Virus record (IMG/VR): IMGVR_UViG_3300007539_000152
Location: 1-27,642 of that record
Length of the DNA stretch: 27,642 nt
Strand: one strand, 5' to 3'
From: a virus
Positions within the stretch are counted from its first letter, which is position 1. Every line of letters starts with the position of its first letter. Below are positions 1-27,642 of the stretch, in pieces. Position numbers and translations under genes: made by a program. The notes below the pieces were generated by a model. It was given only the letters and a program-made list of their open reading frames with translations. It was not told where the DNA came from and searched no databases.

Positions 1-938
1 AATCTCCCTTTATTAAAATCGAAAATATGAAATAAATTTGGTAAAACAACTGCGCTAGGGTGTAATCCTGTATATTGGATAAAACCTGACTTAGAGGTTT
101 CTAAAACTATTTCATCATCTTCAATTGAGTATTGAATGAATTTCTCACTATTCGCACAATACCAGTATTTGAACTCGTCATTATCGATAAAAACTTTCTT
201 TTTAGGCTTTTCGCCTTCGCTTTCATAGCGTCCGGCTACACTTTCAACAACTTTCAAAACTTCCTTTTCATCTAATGGGTTTGATTGTTCATTATTCCAT
301 TTAAAAGCTGCTTCTTCAAGTTCTTTTTGATCTGGATTTTGATTTCCCTGTATACCTGAGAGAAATTTAAATAGTGTATTGTTTCTACCACCTACCGCAG
401 TGTCCACCAACTTTTTTTCTTTCTTTTCTTCTCTAGATAAAGAAAGTAAGTATTTTCTAAACTTGGGCGATATCTTCCTAATTTCAGCTTTCTGAAGATT
501 ATACCCATGATTAGGGAAATGATACAATAGAGTGTCACCACTAATAATATCAAGTGGAAGGCCAGAAAGCCCAATTTTTCTATTGTTAAACTCTGAATCG
601 TACTCATAAAAATAATGAACCCCTTTTTTAGTTGTTTGTTTTAATGTTTTTTGATCTTCTGGAAACTGACTCATTATTTTATCGTGTGTTTCCATATCGT
701 CAAAATCGACCACGAATATATTTGAACTTTTGCCACAAATCAAACCAAGCCCGCAAACTGGTTTCCCAGGTGCGCACATAACTTCTTCAACTGGTTTATG
801 TAGTGTATTATGTTTTTGCCAAGAATTATTTACTTGATTTGCAGCTATCTTTTTTTCAATCCCGTTTTCATCTTTGACCCTTTTGAAAACGTGATAAGCT
901 GTAAAATGAATATTTTGATCTAAAAAAAATTTTTCCAT
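1..938 (-). CDS. Primase-polymerase (PrimPol plus PriCT), C-terminus cut by the window edge
   Basis: The reading frame is open from the ATG at 938 to the window edge (312 codons seen, no stop), so the gene is partial at its 3' end. Residues about 30-150 look like a bifunctional DNA primase/polymerase (AEP superfamily) domain. The putative metal-binding motif is VVDFDD with the acidic pair D78/D80, followed by a KKGVHYFY motif (H108) and LDIISGD (D130). Residues about 183-238 match the primase C-terminal domain pattern (GGRNNTLFKF, then a conserved NPLDEKEV-like segment). In this family a superfamily 3 or similar helicase often follows; here it would lie outside the window. The role is replication priming or initiation. 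AAAGGG sits just upstream of the ATG as ribosome binding site, and a sigma-70-like promoter lies at 1063-1091. Family assignment is from motif recognition only. Confidence 0.82.
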   Translation of the reverse strand, partial: MEKFFLDQNIHFTAYHVFKRVKDENGIEKKIAANQVNNSWQKHNTLHKPVEEVMCAPGKPVCGLGLICGKSSNIFVVDFDDMETHDKIMSQFPEDQKTLKQTTKKGVHYFYEYDSEFNNRKIGLSGLPLDIISGDTLLYHFPNHGYNLQKAEIRKISPKFRKYLLSLSREEKKEKKLVDTAVGGRNNTLFKFLSGIQGNQNPDQKELEEAAFKWNNEQSNPLDEKEVLKVVESVAGRYESEGEKPKKKVFIDNDEFKYWYCANSEKFIQYSIEDDEIVLETSKSGFIQYTGLHPSAVVLPNLFHIFDFNKGR

Positions 939-1087
939 TGATACCCTTTGTTTTATTTATACCCATAATTTAAAAAAGGAGCCGCACGCCTTCAAAGGGT
1001 ATAAAATGTTATGGCTTTTACAAAAAATAGCTAGTTTTCTGCTGCGGCCCCTATTGATTAAAATTATAAAAATATATTTTAATATAT
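939..1087 (-). other. Intergenic leader upstream of the primase-polymerase
   Basis: I see no convincing ORF in this 149-base gap. It holds the predicted promoter (1063-1091) and a leader of about 115 bases before the ATG at 938. The leader is richer in G+C than its flanks, with segments such as GGGGCCGC and GGAGCCGC that could form secondary structure. A regulatory leader is possible, but I recognise no known riboswitch class. Confidence 0.45.
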
Positions 1088-2084: not shown

Positions 2085-2107
2085 AATCCTTCTTTCTTAA
2101 AAAAATT

Positions 2108-2210
2108 TAGTGAGGCAGGATTCGAACCTGCACACATTGCTAGTACAATGCTATTGGGTGGAACTAGATTTTTACCCTTTTTTAGCGTCTACCATTTTCG
2201 CCACTCACTA
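2108..2210 (-). tRNA. tRNA-Leu-like gene with an oversized anticodon region
   Basis: On the minus strand the acceptor stem is a perfect 7 bp (TAGTGAG with CTCACTA). The D arm carries the leucine-type sequence GCG...TGGTAGACGC, and the T arm is perfect (GCAGG TTCGAAT CCTGC). A variable arm of the class II type is plausible (CATTG, 6-base loop, CAATG). Between the D stem and this variable arm there are about 33 bases where about 18 are expected, and no normal 5-bp stem with 7-base loop can be drawn. The best pairing there is GGGT with ACCC around a 14-base loop. No anticodon can be assigned. CCA is not encoded; the discriminator base is A, as in tRNA-Leu. Total length is 103 bases. It may be a degenerate, intron-like or repurposed tRNA. 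Confidence 0.6.
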
Positions 2211-2216
2211 CTTTAC

Positions 2217-2297
2217 TGCACTGACAGGATTCGAACCTGTAACCTACCTTTAGACGTTTAAAACTATTGGTTGCGCTATCCATTACGCTACAGTGCA
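2217..2297 (-). tRNA. tRNA-like gene (Arg-like D arm) with an oversized anticodon arm
   Basis: The acceptor stem is a perfect 7 bp (TGCACTG with CAGTGCA). The D arm is GCGT-loop-GCGC with ATGGATAG in the loop, reminiscent of tRNA-Arg. The T arm is perfect (ACAGG TTCGAAT CCTGT) and the variable region is a normal 5 bases (AGGTT). The anticodon arm spans 26 bases instead of 17. It can pair ACC with GGT, then an AA/AA mismatch, then TAG with CTA around a 10-base loop. No standard anticodon loop results, so the amino-acid identity is open. CCA is not encoded. It lies 6 bases from the Leu-like gene and shares its anomaly. Confidence 0.6.
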
Positions 2298-2380
2298 AAT
2301 ACACTACCTCTCATTCGACAAGCCTGCCCGGGAATTCCCAGACCCTACACTGAGCTGCGTTTCTTGCCTACTGTAGTGCA
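2298..2380 (-). ncRNA. Structured, GC-richer segment between SSB and the tRNA-like genes
   Basis: There is no ORF here. The segment is visibly richer in G+C than its surroundings. On the minus strand TGCACTAC near the 5' end can pair with GTAGTGTA near the 3' end, like an acceptor stem. A strong internal hairpin can form (GTCTGGG, loop AATT, CCCGGGC). Near the 3' end GTCGAAT resembles a T loop (consensus TTCGAAT) but its flanking stem is weak. It could be a decayed third tRNA or a structured RNA; I cannot complete a cloverleaf. Confidence 0.35.
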
Positions 2381-2761
2381 TTAAAATCCTAAATCATCCA
2401 AATCAGGTTCATTTGATGGTAAATTTTGACCTTTAGAGTCTAAAAATTCAATTTTATTCGCTCTGACTAGTGTTTTATATCTTTTCTTCCCGCTCTCTTT
2501 ATCATCCCATGATTGAGTTTCTAACTCGCCAATTATTAAAACCTGAGAACCTCTTTTTAAAAATTGACTAGCTGTTTTTGCAATTCCACCCCAACAAACA
2601 ATATCGGTCCATTGTGTAATTTCTTTTGGGTTACCTTGTTGATCTTTCCAACGCTTTGTTGATCCAAGATTGAAGTTGCAAACCTCACTTGATCCGGCTT
2701 GCCTTAATTCCGGATCTCTTCCCAAATAACCGATTAAATTTACTTGGTTCATATATGCCAT
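2381..2761 (-). CDS. ssb: Single-stranded DNA-binding protein
   Basis: This 126-aa protein coats single-stranded DNA during phage replication and recombination. Residues 1-108 form the SSB OB-fold, recognised from MNQVNLIGYLGRDPELR at the N-terminus, NFNLGSTKRWKD, the TDIVCWGGIAKTASQFLKRG core and VLIIGELETQSW. The short tail ends in the acidic, Phe-terminated DLDDLGF, which in bacterial SSBs recruits partner proteins. It is slightly shorter than typical bacterial SSBs because the linker is short. The start at 2761 has AAAGGGAA upstream; M4 is an alternative start. It sits in a recombination block with the Gp157-like and ERF genes, 1 base after the preceding small gene. Confidence 0.95.
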   Translation of the reverse strand: MAYMNQVNLIGYLGRDPELRQAGSSEVCNFNLGSTKRWKDQQGNPKEITQWTDIVCWGGIAKTASQFLKRGSQVLIIGELETQSWDDKESGKKRYKTLVRANKIEFLDSKGQNLPSNEPDLDDLGF

Positions 2762-19153: not shown

Positions 19154-20794
19154 TTAAAAATCCTCTCGACAGGACAAAGTAACATCAATAGTATTTGAGC
19201 TTGCACTTTGTCCGCTAACCGTCAACGTTTCGCCAGGAGCTAAGAAAACATCTAATTCATCTAAATTTTCTTTTGTTGAATCCTCTTTAGCTAGTGTAAT
19301 ACTATCCACAACTTGTCCACCTGTTATAGTAGTTCCTGCTGTATCATAATCAACCACACTTGTATTTGTGCTAATATCAGTATAAGAAGGAGTTCCGCCC
19401 AAAGTTGTATTTTTAATAAACTTAATAATAGCATTTTTTGTTCCATCTGTTGCAGCTGAACCAACTCTTAAGCGTACTGTTATCTTATTGTTTTTACTTG
19501 CAAAAGTTGTTTTATTTCTAATAGTTAAAATATTTTCTTCTGTTGTAACCGCTTTTTCATTACTAATTGAATTTGCTGGACCTGTTATCTTATCGGCCCC
19601 CTCAGTAAAACAAGCCATTGAAGAAGTTGAAACACTAATATTTGTTGTATTAGTTGTGTTATTAGATTCAGCGGCTAATGGAAAAGATGGGTTAAACATT
19701 GAAGGTTCAGTGTAAGTATTAGCATATTGCACACGATGAACAACTGTAAACTCACCCGTAACAGGATTTTCAACGTAATATTTAATCTCTCCAAATCCTA
19801 ACCATTGATAACTAATTTCAAATACATTCCCCTTAGTAGGATCTAAAAGCATGTTTGATGGATTATCATCCCCATCATTGCCATCTAATGTGTCAACATT
19901 CCAAGAGCTTTGCGCAACAAATGTTGTGCTCGTATTTGATCTTAAAAATAAACCGAATGTTTCGCCAGAATATCCAAATCCAACCCCATTGTCATCGTCA
20001 AACGCGCCTATGAGCTGGCTATTTCCAGCAACACCAGTTGTAAAAACACCAGTAAATCTTAACAATGTACCTTGTCCGGCTCTGTATTTTGCAAATGCTT
20101 TCGTTTCCATTCTAGCATCAGAACTTGAAGCAGCACCAGAAGAAACAACCGCTTTTGCGTTGCTTTGTGTTACCGTTCCACTTCCATTTGTTGTAGTTGT
20201 TACAACATCAGCATTAATATTATAAGCAAAATATAATTGAACTATTGGTGTCAATGGGGATGTTCTCAAATCACCAAAAGCACTCAAAGGGTCGCTAATA
20301 TGGGTTCTTAAATGTCCCTCAACATCCACGGGAACATTTCTAAAGTTGCCCGCTGGGTCTTCACCCATAATTGCAGATCTAACTAGATCAACATCCACTT
20401 GATTATTAATAGTCTGGTCTAAAGTAGATGTTAAACCCTTTGATTGTGCTGTATGGTATTTAGTTGATAATCTAAATTCGCCTTGTGGAGTTGCCCCGTT
20501 GGTGTATCTAACTCTGAAAAATTTAGTGATTGGAATGACTGTAAACGCACCACCAAACGCAGTCTGTGAAGCGTTGGCAATCATTGTCATATCTTTTATT
20601 CTATCCCAGTTTTCACCATCCATTGAAAATTGTAATTCTAAACCATTTGTGGCACTTGCCACGTCACTGTGTACGGCAACTGTGATTAAACTGTATTCCT
20701 CAACGTCCTCGGCATTTCCTGTAAAAGTTGCTCCAGCCCCTAACAATGTGCCATTGATGCTGGAATTAACTTCCGATATTCTAGCAAGTGACAT
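19154..20794 (-). CDS. Virion-associated protein downstream of the coat gene, 546 aa
   Basis: This beta-rich, Ser/Thr/Asn-rich protein appears to have three parts. Residues about 30-115 form a beta-sandwich-like domain (LELQFSMDGENWDRIK, FFRVRYTNGATPQGEFRLST). Residues 235-400 form a larger beta domain with TLLRFTGVFTTGVAG, a loop region rich in Asp and Gly (DTLDGNDGDDNPSN), and GFGEIKYYVENPVTGEFTVV, a pattern known from phage structural proteins. Residues 410-546 are a C-terminal strand-rich region. No signal peptide. Its place between the coat protein and the neck genes suggests a head fibre or decoration protein; a tail attachment role is also possible. It begins directly after the stop of the preceding Lys-rich gene, with no gap. 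Confidence 0.65.
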   Translation of the reverse strand: MSLARISEVNSSINGTLLGAGATFTGNAEDVEEYSLITVAVHSDVASATNGLELQFSMDGENWDRIKDMTMIANASQTAFGGAFTVIPITKFFRVRYTNGATPQGEFRLSTKYHTAQSKGLTSTLDQTINNQVDVDLVRSAIMGEDPAGNFRNVPVDVEGHLRTHISDPLSAFGDLRTSPLTPIVQLYFAYNINADVVTTTTNGSGTVTQSNAKAVVSSGAASSSDARMETKAFAKYRAGQGTLLRFTGVFTTGVAGNSQLIGAFDDDNGVGFGYSGETFGLFLRSNTSTTFVAQSSWNVDTLDGNDGDDNPSNMLLDPTKGNVFEISYQWLGFGEIKYYVENPVTGEFTVVHRVQYANTYTEPSMFNPSFPLAAESNNTTNTTNISVSTSSMACFTEGADKITGPANSISNEKAVTTEENILTIRNKTTFASKNNKITVRLRVGSAATDGTKNAIIKFIKNTTLGGTPSYTDISTNTSVVDYDTAGTTITGGQVVDSITLAKEDSTKENLDELDVFLAPGETLTVSGQSASSNTIDVTLSCREDF

Positions 20795-20962
20795 TTAAAC
20801 CTCGTCTTTTTTAGCTTTTTTCTTTTTTGGAGCTTCTTTTTTTGGCTTTTCGCCTTCTAATTTAAAATCTTTGTATTTCTCTGCATCGCATTCATTACAT
20901 ACGATCTTTTGACCTTTTGAATTAACTAAAGTCACTGTTTCAACAATATGTCTATTAATCAT
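20795..20962 (-). CDS. Short Lys-rich protein after the coat gene, 55 aa
   Basis: The ATG at 20962 is preceded by an AAAGG ribosome binding site. The TAA ends exactly where the next gene's ATG begins. The product has a small N-terminal part with a CxxC pair (KIVCNECD, residues 19-26) and a tail made almost only of Lys, Glu, Pro and Ala (residues 36-55). The CxxC could bind zinc; the basic tail could bind DNA or the acidic coat lattice. No family recognised. Confidence 0.7.
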   Translation of the reverse strand: MINRHIVETVTLVNSKGQKIVCNECDAEKYKDFKLEGEKPKKEAPKKKKAKKDEV

Positions 20963-20984
20963 AATAAGCCTTTAAAAAATGAAT

Positions 20985-21002
20985 AAGGGGCTTAAGCCCC
21001 TT
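20985..21002 (-). terminator. Palindromic hairpin after the coat protein gene
   Basis: AAGGGGC, loop TTAA, GCCCCTT: a perfect stem lying 9 bases beyond the coat stop codon. The T run on the minus strand comes only after several intervening bases, so it may be a weak terminator or an mRNA-stabilising end. The coding of a short gene just downstream implies readthrough. Confidence 0.6.
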
Positions 21003-21011
21003 TTATGTGTA

Positions 21012-22172
21012 TTAACCTGCGATTCTTACTGCGTGTTCTGGATTGACAGCTTTCACACCAAATAAAATGTCGTACTCGAAAAGAGTTTGTTTATTTTGAC
21101 GTGAAACCTCTAATCTAAACGGAATACCTGTTACAGGGTCAACCGCTGTTAAGATTTGATTTCCAGAAGTTACAGCAGGCGCGCCTAGTGATCTAATCGC
21201 TAAAGCAAATGCATTTTTTTGGAATGCTAAGTTTACAACATGGTCAGTTTTGATAGTCAATACTGCGTCATCAGCCCATGCAACTTTCGCAGCTGGTGAA
21301 AATGTCAATCCAGTGATAGCATTTCCTGAAGCTGTTACAGTGTTAGTAGCTGTATACGTTTGAGTATCGCCCGCAACTGTGAAGATATCACCTTGCACAA
21401 TAGTACCAGTCAAAGAAGTGTCATCTAAGTTAATAGAAGTGTCACCAACTTGAACAGAAGCATTATTAATTAAAGCATCATTATCGCCAGTTGTTCCAGA
21501 TAATGTTCCATGTGTATGAGTTGGGATATTTTGGTTCATGTACCACTCGAAACCAAATTTTCTACCCATTACACCCTCACGGATTACGGATTCGTCCGCT
21601 GATTGAGAAACATCTCTGAAAGCTGCTAATTGCTCAACGTTTTCCTGTGCAAATTCGTCGATGAACATCTTTCTATCTGTTACAGGTGCTAAATTAGTTG
21701 AAAGTTTTCTTTTAGCTTCTGAGATTAAAGAAGTGTCAGAAGCGAAAGGAGTTGTTCCCGCTGTTCCTGAGTACTCATATACATCCTTATATTCGGCCAA
21801 AAGCTTAGTATCAACATCATTCGCAAGAGCTTTTAACGATTCACTTGCTTGTAAAGGAATTGTTCCTACTCCATCGGCAATTTCAGCCATTTGTTTATCT
21901 GTAAGATAGAAAGAACATTTTCTCCACTGATTTAACGTTAATGTAACATTGGTAAGCGTAGAATCTTCCCCAGATAACGGAGTATTAGAAGGTGAAACGT
22001 CCGAAACTGTTCTTGAATCGCCTTTTGTGAAACTGATAGTGTCACCTTTTTGGGCAACTTGAGCAGAAAAGTCCGTTTGAACGTTTCTTGGTGTTTGTGC
22101 ATTTTCTCTAAATGCTAAAATAGATTGAGCAAAGATTTTGTCAACCACGGCACTAGTTAAAGTATTAGCCAT
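21012..22172 (-). CDS. Major capsid protein, P22 coat-like
   Basis: This 386-aa protein resembles the P22 coat protein family of HK97-fold capsid proteins. Recognised segments are MANTLTSAVVDKIFAQSILA at the start, GDTISFTKGD (residues 43-52), VTLTLNQWRKCSFYLTDKQM (76-95), VDTKLLAEY, GRKFGFEWYMNQNIPTHTHG (203-222, highly typical) and NLAFQKNAFALAIRSLGAPA (314-333). Residues about 225-310 look like the inserted domain seen in P22-type proteins (TSINLDDTSLTGTIVQGD). It follows a scaffold gene and is itself followed by a hairpin. Confidence 0.92.
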   Translation of the reverse strand: MANTLTSAVVDKIFAQSILAFRENAQTPRNVQTDFSAQVAQKGDTISFTKGDSRTVSDVSPSNTPLSGEDSTLTNVTLTLNQWRKCSFYLTDKQMAEIADGVGTIPLQASESLKALANDVDTKLLAEYKDVYEYSGTAGTTPFASDTSLISEAKRKLSTNLAPVTDRKMFIDEFAQENVEQLAAFRDVSQSADESVIREGVMGRKFGFEWYMNQNIPTHTHGTLSGTTGDNDALINNASVQVGDTSINLDDTSLTGTIVQGDIFTVAGDTQTYTATNTVTASGNAITGLTFSPAAKVAWADDAVLTIKTDHVVNLAFQKNAFALAIRSLGAPAVTSGNQILTAVDPVTGIPFRLEVSRQNKQTLFEYDILFGVKAVNPEHAVRIAG

Positions 22173-22190
22173 TTTTTTTCTCCGGTTTTA

Positions 22191-22865
22191 TTAACCGCTT
22201 ACAACCTTTTCACCTCTTGCAATGGCTTCTAAATTAGCGCCAAAGTCAGAACGTGAAACAGTCCTAGACGGTTCGTTTTGGTTTAATGAGTTTTGTTCAC
22301 CACTTCCACCCGCATTTTGTATAACTTGTAGATGTGGATTTTTTTCAACAAATGAAGATACACCCTCGCTTATTGAATTATAATTAGTTTCGCCATCAGA
22401 AAAAATAAATCCATCATTTTCAACTTTGATTTTTTTCTCTAAAGAATCTTTCACGAATGGTAAAAGGTCTTTAGAAACGTTTGAATTATTCAAAGCATTA
22501 ATTAATTCATTGTCTCTTTTAGCGTTCATGGCCTCAGTAGCTTTTTGAGCGGCTAATTTTTTTGATTCTGATAATTCCTCCTGAATATTGTTAACTGTGA
22601 ATTGTAATTTTTCCAATTCAGTCATTGAGCTTTTAGCTTTTTCCTCTTTGGATTTAACTAAATTAGTCAATTGCTCCACAATATTTTGTTCCTTATCTAA
22701 TCCTAAATTTTCACTAAGTGAATTAAGCGTGCCTGACAATTCAGAATTTTTTTGTCTGCGTTGCTTACTCTCTTCGTTCAACTCTGTAAATTTACCACTA
22801 ATTAAATTAAATGCATCTTCACCAAGATCACTTTTAACTTTGTTTAAAACTTCTTGTAAGTCCAT
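22191..22865 (-). CDS. Capsid scaffolding protein
   Basis: This 224-aa, strongly helical and charged protein (starts MDLQEVLNKVKSDLGEDAFN) has a coiled-coil-like central region (about residues 30-125, Lys/Glu/Gln/Leu-rich: KQRRQKNSELSGTLNSLSEN) and a C-terminal part that is less ordered, with NEPSRTVSRSDFGANLEAIA near the end. Phage scaffolds look like this and sit directly before the coat gene, as here (18 bases apart). It guides coat assembly and leaves the mature head. No protease domain is visible. The ribosome binding site is AAAAGGAAAAAAC. Confidence 0.85.
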   Translation of the reverse strand: MDLQEVLNKVKSDLGEDAFNLISGKFTELNEESKQRRQKNSELSGTLNSLSENLGLDKEQNIVEQLTNLVKSKEEKAKSSMTELEKLQFTVNNIQEELSESKKLAAQKATEAMNAKRDNELINALNNSNVSKDLLPFVKDSLEKKIKVENDGFIFSDGETNYNSISEGVSSFVEKNPHLQVIQNAGGSGEQNSLNQNEPSRTVSRSDFGANLEAIARGEKVVSG

Positions 22866-22932
22866 GTTTTTTCCTTTTCTAAGGTTTTATATCCCCAAAA
22901 CTTCGGAGATGGTTTATATATCTTTAAATATA
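22866..22932 (-). other. Short intergenic region with hairpin before the scaffold gene
   Basis: This 67-base gap contains a 6-bp stem, 8-base loop hairpin (ATCTCC and GGGGAT, at 22891-22910) without a clear T run. The start of an exact 22-base repeat shared with 18782-18803 also falls here and runs into the MuF stop codon. I see no ORF and no good promoter. Confidence 0.5.
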
Positions 22933-24051
22933 CTATTTTATGTCGTTTTCAACAATTCTGGTCTTAATTTCTTTCGGTTTTTCAAAGCCTCTAACTGCTT
23001 TCATATAAGAAATCTTACCATTATTAAAATCTTTCCTATTTTTCTCACCCATTAATAGTGATTTTTGCTTTTCAGGTAGCCTTTTAATTTGTCCAATACC
23101 ATTTTTTAATTTAAAATCTCTCGGGTCCGCATCACCTTTATAAACTGGTATCAAATAACATCTGCAATTAGGGTGAGCTGGTTGTTGTGGTATTCTACCC
23201 TTTGGAAATACACCCTTTCCCATTCCAAAATTTGTATTTGCGTATACATCACATTGATCGTAAACCTCTTGGTGACCGTTTGATAATTTCCACTTGTAGC
23301 CAACTACATCGTCATCGTTTTTGTGTTTTAAATGAAATCCCTCAGTCCAGGCCCGTCCAACCTCAGTACGTGAAATTCTTTCTGCTACATAGCGCGCCTT
23401 TTCGTCAATCGCTTTATTGATTGTTCTTGCGATTTTCTTTTTGTCTTGCTCTTCAAAAGCATCTAAGAATTTTAAATAAGCCTTTTTGGTCCTGGTCAGG
23501 TTCCCCCGTGTAAGTTCCCGCCTAAGTTTCTTAACTTCTTTTAAAGTCTTTTCATCCCTTGTTGATCTGCTAAGCCTTGCAATACTTTTTCTTATTGGGT
23601 CGCTGTCAATCTCGCCCTTTCTAACTCTATCCCTAACATTTTTAATAATCTTTTTGATTGAGTCACCTTCACGAATAATGGTTGTTATGTCATTGGCAAC
23701 CGCTCTTTTAACTCTATTTGTTGCTCTTTGAATCCTTTTTGATGCCGTGATTCCATCTTCAACCCAGGAACGTGTATAAATCTTTTTACCGATCGTTTCA
23801 GCGTCTGGAGTTCCAATAAATCCACCATAACCAAGTTCAACGGCTTTAACAATATTCTTTTGAATCAATACTTCCATTATGGCTGCATATTCGCCAGTTT
23901 CAAACAAACCAACAATAAACGACCTTAATTTAGGATCGTCTAAGTTTTTATTTATTTCATCAATTGTTTTTTTAGAAAATTCTGAATAACTTGAGTCAAA
24001 CTCTTTTTCAATTTCTTCTGTCTGCTCTTCCTTATTCGATCGGTTCGACAT
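22933..24051 (-). CDS. MuF-like minor head (morphogenesis) protein
   Basis: The 372-aa product carries the phage Mu F-like domain in its C-terminal half (residues about 215-304). Recognised are RYVAERISRTEVGRAWTEGF (220-239, the family's Arg-Thr-Glu signature), then YDQCDVYANTN with C267 and PAHPNCRCYLIPVY (291-304). The N-terminal half is helical and basic. In other phages these proteins sit near the portal in the head interior or assist assembly. The gene overlaps the portal by 20 bases. Its stop is TAG. Confidence 0.9.
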   Translation of the reverse strand: MSNRSNKEEQTEEIEKEFDSSYSEFSKKTIDEINKNLDDPKLRSFIVGLFETGEYAAIMEVLIQKNIVKAVELGYGGFIGTPDAETIGKKIYTRSWVEDGITASKRIQRATNRVKRAVANDITTIIREGDSIKKIIKNVRDRVRKGEIDSDPIRKSIARLSRSTRDEKTLKEVKKLRRELTRGNLTRTKKAYLKFLDAFEEQDKKKIARTINKAIDEKARYVAERISRTEVGRAWTEGFHLKHKNDDDVVGYKWKLSNGHQEVYDQCDVYANTNFGMGKGVFPKGRIPQQPAHPNCRCYLIPVYKGDADPRDFKLKNGIGQIKRLPEKQKSLLMGEKNRKDFNNGKISYMKAVRGFEKPKEIKTRIVENDIK

Positions 24052-25396
24052 CGTCTATAAAATTATTCGGGTTTGTCTCTTCCACTTTCGCTTGTTCATC
24101 TATTGATTCTTGAATTTCTTCCATCGTATCTTTACCAACATATTGAAAAGCATTATAAACAGAAATCTTTTTAACATGAGCGTTTCCAACCGGACCAAGA
24201 TTCATTTCCATTAGATCTATGGCTTTTTGAATTTCTTTTTCTGCATCAATGAAAGTAAATTTTCTAGTGTATGAAACTTCAACCTCTTCACCACCACCAA
24301 AATATAATTGAATCATTTTCCAAACTTGATTCTCCATATTTTCAGCACTCAAAGCGCGTCCACTTAATACAGTTTCGGTTTTCTCATAATCCCAACGTTT
24401 AGATTCACCACTCGTTTGAGATTGACTTTTAATAATAGCTAAGTTTGACATATCATACATTGTCACGACTAATCGAGCCATGTTTTCAATCAAAATCTTT
24501 ATAGGCTCAACTGGTGGAGAAATATATGCCGGTCCTTTACTAGCTTTCGGGTCAAATACTAAAGCGTTTGATGTTCCTAATGTTTCTTGATCCTTACTGC
24601 TAGTTTTGGGAAGCGTTAAAACTGCGTACATTTGGTTATCTTCTTGTTCTTGAACATTAGAGGTCAAATTATATAATCTATGTGCAGCCTTCGCCACTTG
24701 GAAAAAGTCTGAAATTGGGTTTAAATCATCTGAATCCGTACCGTAATATTGAATTATCGGGATAACACCCAATTTATTATCTCCGTCATCTTGAATATCA
24801 CCTTTTTCAGATTCAACCCACCACTTTTCACGGGTCCAGGTCTTCCAGGTTTTCAACTCTTCACCGTTGACCATTCTTTTGGTATAGTATCTGATTTTTA
24901 AAAGGTTTCCAAACTTGTCATACTCTGTTTTATCTTCATCAACTCGATTTTTCGTAATTAAAACTAAATACGGCAAATCTCTATTTTCTATGGCTGAGGC
25001 TTTGTTAGTATCGGGATTAACAGAGTTTTCAACTAATATATATGTTTTACCCTGCAAAGTTGCTTCCCTGGTGGCACGTTTGAAAAACACGTTTGCTGAA
25101 TTGCCTTTTTTATCTATATCTTTTTCTATTCTTGATAATATATCACTTTGAATGTCTCTTTGTGGTTCTGTTTTATACAAACTATCAACATGAGCGTTAA
25201 TTATTGGTTTGAAAACGTTCAAATACCAAGCATTATTTTTTCTTGTTTGGTATCTTTGCCCGCGCTCCCTCCAATGTGGAACAATATACTCACCACTTTT
25301 AAAACCATCAGAACCATTAAAAGCATGGTCTAATATTTCATAATCTGTCAGGGTTGCAAAATCTATATTTCCTACTACGGTATCATCTAAAGCCAT
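24032..25396 (-). CDS. Portal protein, DUF4055-like
   Basis: The 454-aa protein is placed between TerL and MuF genes, the standard position of the portal. It is shorter than most portals and most closely resembles the DUF4055 portal group: a YIVPHWRERGQRYQTRKNNA segment (residues 37-56), PIINAHVDSLYKTEPQRDI (64-82), a long central beta/helix region and a helix with SNVQEQEDNQMYAVLTLP. The portal forms the dodecameric ring through which DNA is packaged and ejected. It starts 3 bases after TerL and overlaps MuF by 20 bases. Confidence 0.85.
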   Translation of the reverse strand: MALDDTVVGNIDFATLTDYEILDHAFNGSDGFKSGEYIVPHWRERGQRYQTRKNNAWYLNVFKPIINAHVDSLYKTEPQRDIQSDILSRIEKDIDKKGNSANVFFKRATREATLQGKTYILVENSVNPDTNKASAIENRDLPYLVLITKNRVDEDKTEYDKFGNLLKIRYYTKRMVNGEELKTWKTWTREKWWVESEKGDIQDDGDNKLGVIPIIQYYGTDSDDLNPISDFFQVAKAAHRLYNLTSNVQEQEDNQMYAVLTLPKTSSKDQETLGTSNALVFDPKASKGPAYISPPVEPIKILIENMARLVVTMYDMSNLAIIKSQSQTSGESKRWDYEKTETVLSGRALSAENMENQVWKMIQLYFGGGEEVEVSYTRKFTFIDAEKEIQKAIDLMEMNLGPVGNAHVKKISVYNAFQYVGKDTMEEIQESIDEQAKVEETNPNNFIDDVEPIE

Positions 25397-25399
25397 TTT

Positions 25400-26593
25400 T
25401 TAAGCCCAATCTAAATCAACTGAATCAATATCCACTCTTTCATGATCTCTTGAATGTATTCCGTACCTTAAAGCGTCCATAGAGTGATCATTAAATTTTA
25501 CGGGTTTGTCAAGTACATTCCCGTCTTTATCTTCTTTAAATTTATAAAATTTAATCTCTTTGTGTAAGTCGGTCGAGTCTTTAGTGATAAAAAGTTTATA
25601 CCCTTTTACCGTTTTTATGCCATGTTCAACCGCTTTTGATGCTGGTTTAATATTAAATCCAGCTCGATAAATCTCTTCAATACTCTTTGGCTCGGCTGCA
25701 TCTGCGTAAATCTCATTATTTCTTAAGTCTAATTCTGGATATTTTTCATCTAATTCACTTAATACAGCTTTTAAATCATCATTAGTCAAACCTTTCTCAT
25801 AAATCAATTGTTTAACGTAACAATGATTTTCTTTAAATGCGCACTGAACCAAGCTGGTAGGCACATTAAAACCAAAGTCGAGACCAAAAACAACTTCGTC
25901 AATATTACTAGGTATTTCATCGCATAATTCCCAATTTGTATAAATAGTTGCACCGCTTGAACCTCTTTCGCCTAATCCGTAAACTTTCCAATAAACGGGG
26001 TCCTCTTCTTTTAGACGTTCAATTTCTTTAACAAGTTCCACAGGTAAGAACGGATTATCTAAATAAGTTGATTTTATAAAACAAACATCATTACGAGTCA
26101 ATATTTTATCATAAATCCAATGATACTCATCAGAAGGATTGTAATCTAATAATATTTTACCTGTGGTTCTGAATAATAATTGTTTAAAATCCTCATAACT
26201 AAGCTCATTAGCTTCATTAATAAATAACCAATCTCTTTTACGTCCTCTAATCTTCTGCGGGTCATCAACCGCTAAAAACTCTATCAAGTTCCCAGCAAAG
26301 TTAATAAAATTATCCGTTTTATTATGGTTGTTCGGATCGTACCATTTATGAGTATTCATCACCTCGATAAAATCTCTTAAAACTGAGGCTTTAATTGAAG
26401 GAGTTGTCTTCCTAACCACTGATAATACTTTATTTTGGCCGTAATGCTTTTGCAAAAGAACTAAAAACATTTGTGAAGCCGAATAAGTTTTACTGGACCT
26501 GGTGCCCCCCTGAGACACGATTATTTTATATTTCGGATCATGCCAGGCATCCCAAAGTTGTTCGAATACAGGTGTAACTTTAAGATTTATCAT
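25400..26593 (-). CDS. terL: Terminase large subunit, PBSX family
   Basis: This 397-aa packaging motor has both domains visible. ATPase: variant Walker A GGTRSSKT (residues 29-36), Walker B with catalytic Glu DWLFINEAN (121-129, E127), and motif III DYNPSDEYHW (150-159). Nuclease: GLDFG (237-241, D239), YADAAEPKS (296-304, D298) and NDHSMDALRYG (368-378, D369/D373), the three acidic clusters of RNase H-like terminase nucleases. These match the PBSX-type TerL group. It is preceded by TerS and a 57-codon gene that overlaps it by 14 bases. Confidence 0.96.
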   Translation of the reverse strand: MINLKVTPVFEQLWDAWHDPKYKIIVSQGGTRSSKTYSASQMFLVLLQKHYGQNKVLSVVRKTTPSIKASVLRDFIEVMNTHKWYDPNNHNKTDNFINFAGNLIEFLAVDDPQKIRGRKRDWLFINEANELSYEDFKQLLFRTTGKILLDYNPSDEYHWIYDKILTRNDVCFIKSTYLDNPFLPVELVKEIERLKEEDPVYWKVYGLGERGSSGATIYTNWELCDEIPSNIDEVVFGLDFGFNVPTSLVQCAFKENHCYVKQLIYEKGLTNDDLKAVLSELDEKYPELDLRNNEIYADAAEPKSIEEIYRAGFNIKPASKAVEHGIKTVKGYKLFITKDSTDLHKEIKFYKFKEDKDGNVLDKPVKFNDHSMDALRYGIHSRDHERVDIDSVDLDWA

Positions 26594-26753
26594 TAATTTG
26601 AATTATCTCACTTAAAGGTTTATTGTATTGAGGAACCATTTTACGATAAACTTTATTTAATCGTTTCATTTCTTTTCGTCGTTGTGACCTGTTGAGACCT
26701 TCTTTTTTCAGTTCTTGCAATATCTCTTGATCTAATGATTTAATTCGTTTCAT
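26580..26753 (-). CDS. Small basic protein overlapping TerS and TerL, 57 aa
   Basis: This frame runs from ATG at 26753 to TAA at 26580 and overlaps both the end of TerS and the start of TerL by 14 bases. It is preceded by AGGGGAAGAG, a good ribosome binding site. The product is helical and very basic (MKRIKSLDQEILQELKKEGL, then NRSQRRKEMKRLNKVYRK), suggesting nucleic-acid binding. No named family is recognised. Its place between the two terminase subunits suggests a role in packaging, but this is inference. Confidence 0.75.
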   Translation of the reverse strand: MKRIKSLDQEILQELKKEGLNRSQRRKEMKRLNKVYRKMVPQYNKPLSEIIQINDKS

Positions 26754-27165
26754 CTCTTCCCCTAACCACTTCTATTTTTATTTCATTATTCATTTTTTCA
26801 CCGCCAGACGTTAAATCAACCCTTTCTAAATATTGCCCCGTCATTTTATTGTATTGAGTTAACATTTTATCAAAAATATTTTTCTCTTTTGGGTCTGTTG
26901 AATCGGCAGTTTGCAATAAAACTTTTTTAATCTTTTGTAAAACCAATTCTTTAGGCAAACCAAGCTCAGCAAACATTTGAGCCGTCGTTAATTGCCTTTC
27001 TTTATCAATTAGGGGCTTAATTGCCCCTTTTACCCATTTTTCCTCTTTTGCTCTTTTTCTTATGGCCGGATCTGAGATTTGATACTTTTCTGATAATTCT
27101 ATATAACTAAAATTACCCGTTTCATAGTCTGCCTTTACGTCTGACCACGTATCTAAATCATACAT
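26740..27165 (-). CDS. terS: Terminase small subunit
   Basis: This 141-aa protein has an N-terminal helix-turn-helix (residues 18-45: NFSYIELSEKYQISDPAIRK, then RAKEEKW), which matches the DNA-recognition domain of small terminase subunits. A central helical region (residues 55-110) would be the oligomerisation domain, and a short C-terminal tail ends KIEVVRGRDETN. It is directly upstream of TerL. It recognises the packaging start on phage DNA; no such site is identified here. Confidence 0.85.
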   Translation of the reverse strand: MYDLDTWSDVKADYETGNFSYIELSEKYQISDPAIRKRAKEEKWVKGAIKPLIDKERQLTTAQMFAELGLPKELVLQKIKKVLLQTADSTDPKEKNIFDKMLTQYNKMTGQYLERVDLTSGGEKMNNEIKIEVVRGRDETN

Positions 27166-27168
27166 ATA

Positions 27169-27462
27169 CTAACCTTTAGCCTTAATTTTTTTGTCCAAAT
27201 TCGGGTTCTTAGGGGTATCAACGTAACCCTCGTATTGTGGTTCAGCTAAAAAGTGTTTAGCCTCTTCATAATATGGGTTTGATTTACGAATCCCAGCGAA
27301 AACAGTATTTAAGATAATTTTAAGATCTGAAATTGTTTTAACTTTATCCCAAAGAATTGGAGCAATCATTTTTGAATCGTCTGTTTCTTGTTCTAGTGCA
27401 GCAGCCACCCCTTCGGAGCAGTCTTTCACTATTTCTGCATCTTCAATATTTTCTTTAACCAT
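27169..27462 (-). CDS. Unknown small protein upstream of terminase, 97 aa
   Basis: I do not recognise this acidic N-terminus, mixed alpha/beta protein (starts MVKENIEDAEIVKDCSEGVA). The middle (KTISDLKIILNTVFAGIRKS, residues 41-60) looks helical; the C-terminus is basic and proline-containing. It starts with an 8-base overlap with the preceding partial gene and ends 3 bases before TerS. Position suggests a packaging or DNA-metabolism accessory. Confidence 0.65.
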   Translation of the reverse strand: MVKENIEDAEIVKDCSEGVAAALEQETDDSKMIAPILWDKVKTISDLKIILNTVFAGIRKSNPYYEEAKHFLAEPQYEGYVDTPKNPNLDKKIKAKG

Positions 27463-27642
27463 TTTTCATTGCTTCCATTTCTGCGGTTTTGTCTCGGTTT
27501 TTAGCTTTTTCATTATCGTAGTTATCGCCGAATCGAGCGTGTAATTTTTTAGCGTTTGCATTTATTACTTCAATCTCAGTGAATCCGAATTTTTTAAACA
27601 TAACCAATAGGTTGTAATAAATTCGAGCGTATGTTTTTTTGA
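27455..27642 (-). CDS. MazG-like nucleotide pyrophosphohydrolase, C-terminal part only
   Basis: The frame is open from the window edge to a TAA at 27455; the start lies outside. About 61 residues are visible. They contain EVINANAKKLHARFGDNYDN followed by EKAKNRD, the pattern (Asn-x-x-Lys-Leu-x-x-Arg-[Phe/Tyr] then Glu-x-Ala-x-Asn-Arg-Asp) found at the end of phage MazG-like NTP pyrophosphohydrolases. Such enzymes hydrolyse non-canonical or alarmone-type nucleotides. The catalytic part is not visible, so the call depends on the tail motif. Confidence 0.6.
   Translation of the reverse strand, partial: KKTYARIYYNLLVMFKKFGFTEIEVINANAKKLHARFGDNYDNEKAKNRDKTAEMEAMKNG

Follow-up and report, generated by a model that had tools for sequence, protein, structure and literature searches.

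Two adjacent tRNA-bodied genes with remodelled anticodon regions in a tailed-phage contig resemble the T5 stable RNAs

Two neighbouring genes of a tailed phage carry the acceptor, D and T arms of tRNAs around an anticodon region that cannot form a normal anticodon arm. We hold with moderate confidence that the pair are non-decoding tRNA mimics of the T5 RNA1/RNA2 kind, likely acting as decoys or competitors for tRNA-binding enzymes. The window (the whole stretch of DNA analysed, 27,642 bases) is the entire IMG/VR record IMGVR_UViG_3300007539_000152. Its genes, on the minus strand almost throughout, include those for a terminase, a portal, a P22-type coat protein, a tape measure, a lipase, ERF, a Gam-like protein and SSB. 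The two RNA genes lie on the minus strand downstream of SSB, with 5 nt between the Arg-like and the Leu-like gene, and a search of the window with the tRNA model found no normal tRNA genes. Another IMG/VR contig, L093, is identical over positions 20213-27642 and, judged by this identity, is the same phage; it extends the phage, and the RNA-gene locus lies outside it. The features of the two genes are the following.

2216 to 2297, minus strand: Arg-like tRNA-bodied RNA gene, 82 nt including G73 (cmscan RF00005, 49.5 bits; body scanner)
2291 to 2297, minus strand: Arg-like acceptor 5' strand TGCACTG, 7/7 pairs with CAGTGCA at 2217-2223 (sequence)
2273 to 2288, minus strand: Arg-like D arm GCGT-AATGGATA-GCGC (sequence, scanner)
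2246 to 2272, minus strand: Arg-like remodelled anticodon region AACCAATAGTTTTAAACGTCTAAAGGT, 27 nt against the normal 18 (excision tests)
2224 to 2240, minus strand: Arg-like T arm ACAGG-TTCGAAT-CCTGT (sequence, scanner)
2107 to 2210, minus strand: Leu-like tRNA-bodied RNA gene, 104 nt including A73 (RF00005, 35 bits; body scanner)
2204 to 2210, minus strand: Leu-like acceptor 5' strand TAGTGAG, 7/7 pairs with CTCACTA at 2108-2114 (sequence)
2185 to 2201, minus strand: Leu-like D arm GCGAAAATGGTAGACGC with A14, A15 and G18G19 (sequence)
2178 to 2184, minus strand: Leu-like 7-nt linker TAAAAAA before hairpin 1 (sequence)
2156 to 2177, minus strand: Leu-like hairpin 1, GGGT-AAAAATCTAGTTCC-ACCC, in place of the anticodon arm (computed fold)
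2134 to 2151, minus strand: Leu-like variable-arm hairpin GCATTG-TACTAG-CAATGT (sequence, pairing test)
2115 to 2131, minus strand: Leu-like T arm GCAGG-TTCGAAT-CCTGC (sequence, scanner)

A scanner that requires an acceptor, T8, a D arm and a T arm and leaves the middle free found exactly two matches in the window, these two genes; 498 kb of shuffled sequence gave no match. The folding z-scores of the two genes are -3.0 and -2.6. An Infernal search with RF00005, a check proposed in the earlier note, scored the bodies at 49.5 bits (Arg-like) and 35 bits (Leu-like), the Leu-like gene being absent from the cmscan listing of the window. Sequence, Infernal and scanner thus bear out the reading of this locus as two adjacent tRNA-like genes with an expanded anticodon region. 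The stems are complete in both: acceptor 7/7, D 4/4 and T arm 5/5 in the Arg-like gene, acceptor 7/7, D 3/3 and T arm 5/5 in the Leu-like one, each T arm with a TTCGAAT loop. Compared with a canonical tRNA, both have the 7-bp acceptor, the D arm and the T arm and lack the 5-bp stem and 7-nt loop with U33. ARAGORN called no tRNA in the window by default; in intron mode it forced two calls, Arg(tct) with an intron of 11 nt and Pyl(cta) in a misfolded form. There was neither an ARAGORN tmRNA call nor an Rfam tmRNA match in the window, so a tmRNA was rejected, and the RNAs matched no other Rfam family. Amber suppression or recoding was rejected because of stop-codon usage (TAA 16, TGA 9 and TAG 3 among 28 ORFs); a normal CUA loop is also missing.

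The anomaly lies in the middle of each gene. In the Arg-like gene 27 nt occupy the place of positions 26-43, and in the Leu-like gene 33 nt precede the variable-arm hairpin, against 18 normally; the earlier note had both counts right. It was also right that a normal 5-bp stem and 7-base loop cannot form. Single excisions from the Arg-like arm never gave a 5-bp stem with U33, the best giving 4 pairs in one test and 3 pairs in another (null p=0.93), and five pairs were reached by none of the excisions tried on the Leu-like arm. The Arg-like arm shows no clear alternative structure. Because its 3' half, from the anticodon onward, matches a tRNA-Arg(UCU) of a Yersinia phage at ~94% identity across 31 nt, the Arg-like gene most likely descends from a gene of that type. 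The view that neither gene has a readable anticodon is therefore fair in that no normal arm exists, but the Arg-like gene does retain the ancestral UCU triplet inside its enlarged loop.

In the Leu-like gene, the loop sequence ACUAG of the variable arm (2140-2144) is complementary over 5 bp to CUAGU of hairpin 1 (2163-2167), with P about 0.03, and p=0.15 in a separate pseudoknot scoring against shuffles. It is possible that the two hairpins are joined by this loop-loop kissing pair, in which case the RNA would have the same topology as the pseudoknotted RNAs described below. Its T arm is of the RCAGG-TTCGAAT-CCTGY type usual among Leu-type RNAs, and its acceptor differs from the AGTCAGG common among them.

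Two other parts of the window were noted in passing. An open frame that is primase-polymerase-like by inspection only (1-940, minus strand; start MEKFFLDQNIHFTAYHVFKRVKD) runs off the left end. The non-coding stretch that separates SSB from the Arg-like gene (2298-2382, minus strand) has a 10-bp terminal stem (AATGCACTAC/GTAGTGTATT) around two hairpins, and a loop-like GTCGAAT motif lies 5' of the stem's 3' strand; a search of this stretch against Rfam gave no match, and it may represent a third tRNA-derived RNA, altered further than the other two.

No homologue of the locus was found among cultured phages by blastn, nor with exact tRNA patterns of the window genes, and relatives of the SSB, ERF and MCP genes showed no copy of it (RF00005 search of 18, body scanner on all). 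The same architecture did turn up in other viral contigs. A pattern for a tRNA body with at least 5 extra nt between D stem and T arm (class I; acceptors lie outside the pattern) matched at least 45 contigs, with at least 41 true bodies and at least 38 unique arms holding 5 to 24 extra nt; although acceptors played no part in the selection, 28 of the 38 listed are fully paired there. Among the matches listed, roughly one arm in four can be put down to a simple insertion, a duplication or a class II tRNA; the others are restored by one excision no better than shuffled arms are. The same pattern applied to cellular genomes found, among the matches listed, mostly archaeal tRNAs, the introns of which excise to perfect stems with U33. 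A scan of viral contigs for Leu-type RNAs gave at least 120 entries, and the counts from all these scans are lower bounds and not rates. Among the matches listed, the body was intact in 99 of 123, and 97 of these 99 had no normal anticodon arm at the expected place. Of 101 Leu-type RNAs among the matches listed, 67 share the acceptor AGTCAGG, 75 the T arm type given above, 100 have U48 and 86 have A73.

Odd and normal arms were separated mechanically, and the odd group includes some class II tRNAs whose arm is shifted. Several candidates were set aside: in L110, L115, L118 and L121 a normal tRNA-Met gene overlaps a D motif that occurs by chance, L117 and L130 belong to the class II tRNAs and have normal arms, and the blastn matches of L427 in ECBP2-like phages are annotated normal tRNA-Arg genes or unannotated DNA.

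The phages concerned differ in type, judged by their replication genes. Some (L394, L399, L452) combine a near-complete tRNA set with several odd RNAs; in the fetched regions of L458 and L507, ARAGORN and the scanner found only odd RNAs, two or three in tandem, as in the window. Where the phage's tRNA genes encode CCA, the odd RNAs usually do so too (L257, L175, L193, XacN1), with L226 and L119 as exceptions. In Xanthomonas phage XacN1, an unannotated tRNA-bodied RNA (L516:30282-30387) with a 56-nt middle and an encoded CCA sits between annotated tRNA-Ser and tRNA-Lys genes. In Rfam the class registers only through weak matches to the tRNA family, in some cases close to a GOLLD or tmRNA gene, and a search of open-access papers found no description of it. 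Separately, a conserved tRNA-like element with an odd arm like ACTACCGCTCTCTATGACCCACGCCAAAATC and a mostly encoded CCA occurs in 2-3 tandem copies, about 110-215 bp apart, in L295, L338, L343, L347 (Pseudoalteromonas) and L375. In L286, L301, L303, L304, L305 and L306 (Bacteroidetes-group MAGs) and in L354, a CCTGCCTGCCGGCAGGCAGG-type palindrome is inserted beside the anticodon of tRNA-like genes, a feature shared by several genomes.

Comparison of related class members shows, at the level of sequence, that their tRNA shape is under selection. The fetched regions of L104 and L140 have only the odd RNA in common (94% over 64 nt), as do those of L108 and L124 (82% over 67 nt), and in both cases the acceptors are different and fully paired. 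L434 and L438 have matching middles and differing acceptors, and L495 and L500 differ by three compensatory changes within one stem. Of 100 distinct acceptors picked up by the scanner, 85 pair fully, compared with 3% once the 3' strands are re-dealt; the figure is inflated because the scanner itself demands 6/7 pairs. Stems that form crossing helices covary in L395/L427, L431/L465 and L104/L394. Their order (stem 1 5', stem 2 5', stem 1 3', an A-rich loop, stem 2 3', two bases, T arm) is that of a predicted H-type pseudoknot that links the variable region with the enlarged anticodon loop. Scored against shuffles, 24-30% of the middles reach p<=0.05 for such a pseudoknot where 5% is expected; the nested alternative does so in 8%.

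The nearest annotated prototypes of the class are RNA1 and RNA2 of phage T5 (AY543070), annotated as "tRNA-like stable RNA with unknown functions". RNA1 folds into a Leu-type body with a long hairpin on the anticodon stem, RNA2 into a tRNA body whose non-anticodon middle spans 60-70 nt. Matches to RNA1 occur in 484 phage records. Over 12 copies, 95.8% of cells pair against 88.6% in shuffles, and both sides have changed in 11 pairs against 5.2, a count as high being reached in 0 of 500 shuffles; 4 of these pairs are in the acceptor and 7 in the long arm, within its three stacked helices. None of 11 fetched RNA1 homologues carries an RNA feature. In one of the 11, that of Klebsiella phage vB_Kpn_K7_rec10 (L527), a short hypothetical protein (XSD94163.1) is annotated across part of the homologue. 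The earlier note's proposal that selection maintains the tRNA shape thus holds for the class, given the compensatory acceptor and arm changes in IMG/VR families and in T5 RNA1; as no relative with the window locus was found, selection is shown for other class members and is an extrapolation for the window pair itself.

How else might the pair be explained? They could be ordinary pseudo-tRNAs, recently decayed, whose anticodon arms were scrambled by indels while the other arms are not yet lost. This would suit the want of relatives in which the pair is conserved, the odd arms elsewhere that are plain duplications (L111, L122), and the less perfect acceptors of the class I odd set, fully paired (7/7) in 28 of 38 unique RNAs against 81 of 83 normal phage tRNAs among the matches listed. 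Yet all body pairs of the window genes are intact (16 and 15) though their arms need several changes, and the damage is confined to the same arm of both neighbours. A crude toy model of decay, in which each gene suffers two independent events and every one of them hits the arm, puts the probability of this at about 0.006 or less. Compensatory changes in class members also speak against decay. Decay, one of the ideas in the earlier note, is the less likely reading, and we consider it an unlikely account of the window pair that nevertheless keeps some weight.

Less probable still is that the body serves as a scaffold for a regulatory or antisense RNA, stabilizing and processing a variable cargo RNA that acts on a target by pairing or binding. 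Such a role would fit the hypervariable middle within a conserved body, the several different RNAs of this kind per phage, and the apical loop ACATCCRC and V arm of T5 RNA1, both almost invariant; A15-U48, A73 and an encoded CCA are kept, however, and a mere scaffold would need none of them. The decoy idea and that of a structured or regulatory mimic, both raised in the earlier note, remain standing, and sequence alone does not separate them. Its suggestion of short intron-like insertions removed by an unknown route, which would make the genes functional tRNAs, did not hold up and now seems highly improbable: ARAGORN can force its Arg(UCU) with an 11-nt intron, but in the Arg-like gene a 5-bp stem with U33 is not regained by any excision, archaeal introns from the same search restore arms routinely, and no BHB motif was seen on inspection of the window genes nor any Rfam intron in the window. 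We give equally little credence to the tRNA shapes serving only as RNase P and 3'-processing sites in an early transcript, which would suit the 5-nt spacing of tandem genes in an early region that is probably cotranscribed but leaves the conserved, covarying long arms and pseudoknots of relatives unexplained.

Returning to the reading of the pair as non-decoding mimics, they would derive from tRNA genes by replacement of the anticodon domain, visibly so for the Arg-like gene and tRNA-Arg(UCU). The remodelled arm would make the RNA unfit for the ribosome and leave that arm free to diversify. The two RNAs probably share a transcript with the early genes beside them on the minus strand, and would be expected to be excised and CCA-tailed as tRNAs are. 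As far as their sequences tell, class RNAs retain the parts recognised by RNase P, the CCA-adding enzyme and EF-Tu, and in the Leu type by LeuRS, while the decoding parts are gone; the window RNAs may be maintained for the acceptor and elbow half rather than for decoding. Most likely, by analogy, they would bind enzymes that recognise the tRNA body, as decoys or competitors. Defence effectors that cleave or modify tRNAs are candidate targets, as is LeuRS in the case of Leu-type RNAs. Recognition by LeuRS does not involve the anticodon, and the features that the enzyme does recognise (A73, A14, A15-U48, G18G19) persist in Leu-type RNAs that lack an anticodon; the same set is equally that of an ordinary tRNA-Leu ancestor.

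It is tempting to go further, if only tentatively, and to imagine that aminoacylatable, hypervariable, non-decoding tRNA bodies are widespread in environmental phages, where they serve in an arms race as decoys for, or inhibitors of, host enzymes that recognise tRNAs. They would be of Leu type, often pseudoknotted, several per genome and sometimes without a normal tRNA nearby, the window pair being a minimal two-RNA version and T5 RNA1 and RNA2 the cultured members. We regard this broader proposal as possible but doubtful. The class appears to be large and little recognised, and its only annotated examples, the two T5 RNAs, are annotated without a known function. If the stable RNAs of T5, and perhaps T4, join a single large class in which the tRNA ends are conserved and the decoding end has diversified, their role becomes a testable question, with RNA1 homologues at hand in hundreds of sequenced phages and a long arm that covaries. 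Non-decoding mimics would, if real, be added to the known roles of phage tRNAs, and phage annotation would be affected, since the 11 RNA1 homologues fetched go without an RNA feature.

Other known systems resemble the window genes in part. Archaeal tRNAs with short introns also have an intact body with extra bases in the anticodon region, but there excision restores a normal arm. tmRNA has a tRNA-like acceptor and T half without an anticodon, and pseudoknots as in the class, whereas the window genes have an intact D stem, measure 82-104 nt and show no tmRNA match. Defence-evading phage tRNAs, described as still working when host tRNAs are cut (PMC10264068; PMC11555353), are likewise products of phage tRNA genes, with altered anticodon loops in one study (PMC10264068); unlike them, the window RNAs have no arm able to decode. 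T4 RNA C (species 1 RNA) is a stable RNA adjoining the phage tRNA cluster, and its T arm, CCGGG-TTCGAAT-CCCGG, is the only part in common; the scanner finds in it neither a 7-bp acceptor nor a D arm. The T5 RNAs come closest. They are phage-encoded, and like the window genes they have a tRNA body of acceptor, D arm and T arm in which the anticodon domain is replaced by a long non-anticodon domain. They are longer (144 and 125 nt), have acceptor helices of 6 and 8 bp in computed folds, and sit among normal tRNA genes, of which the window has none. RNA1 has a Leu-type D arm, a variable arm and U48, and the T arm of RNA2, GCAGG-TTCGAAT-CCTGT, is like those of the window; the likeness between these annotated stable RNAs and the pair described here is one of architecture rather than of demonstrated sequence homology.
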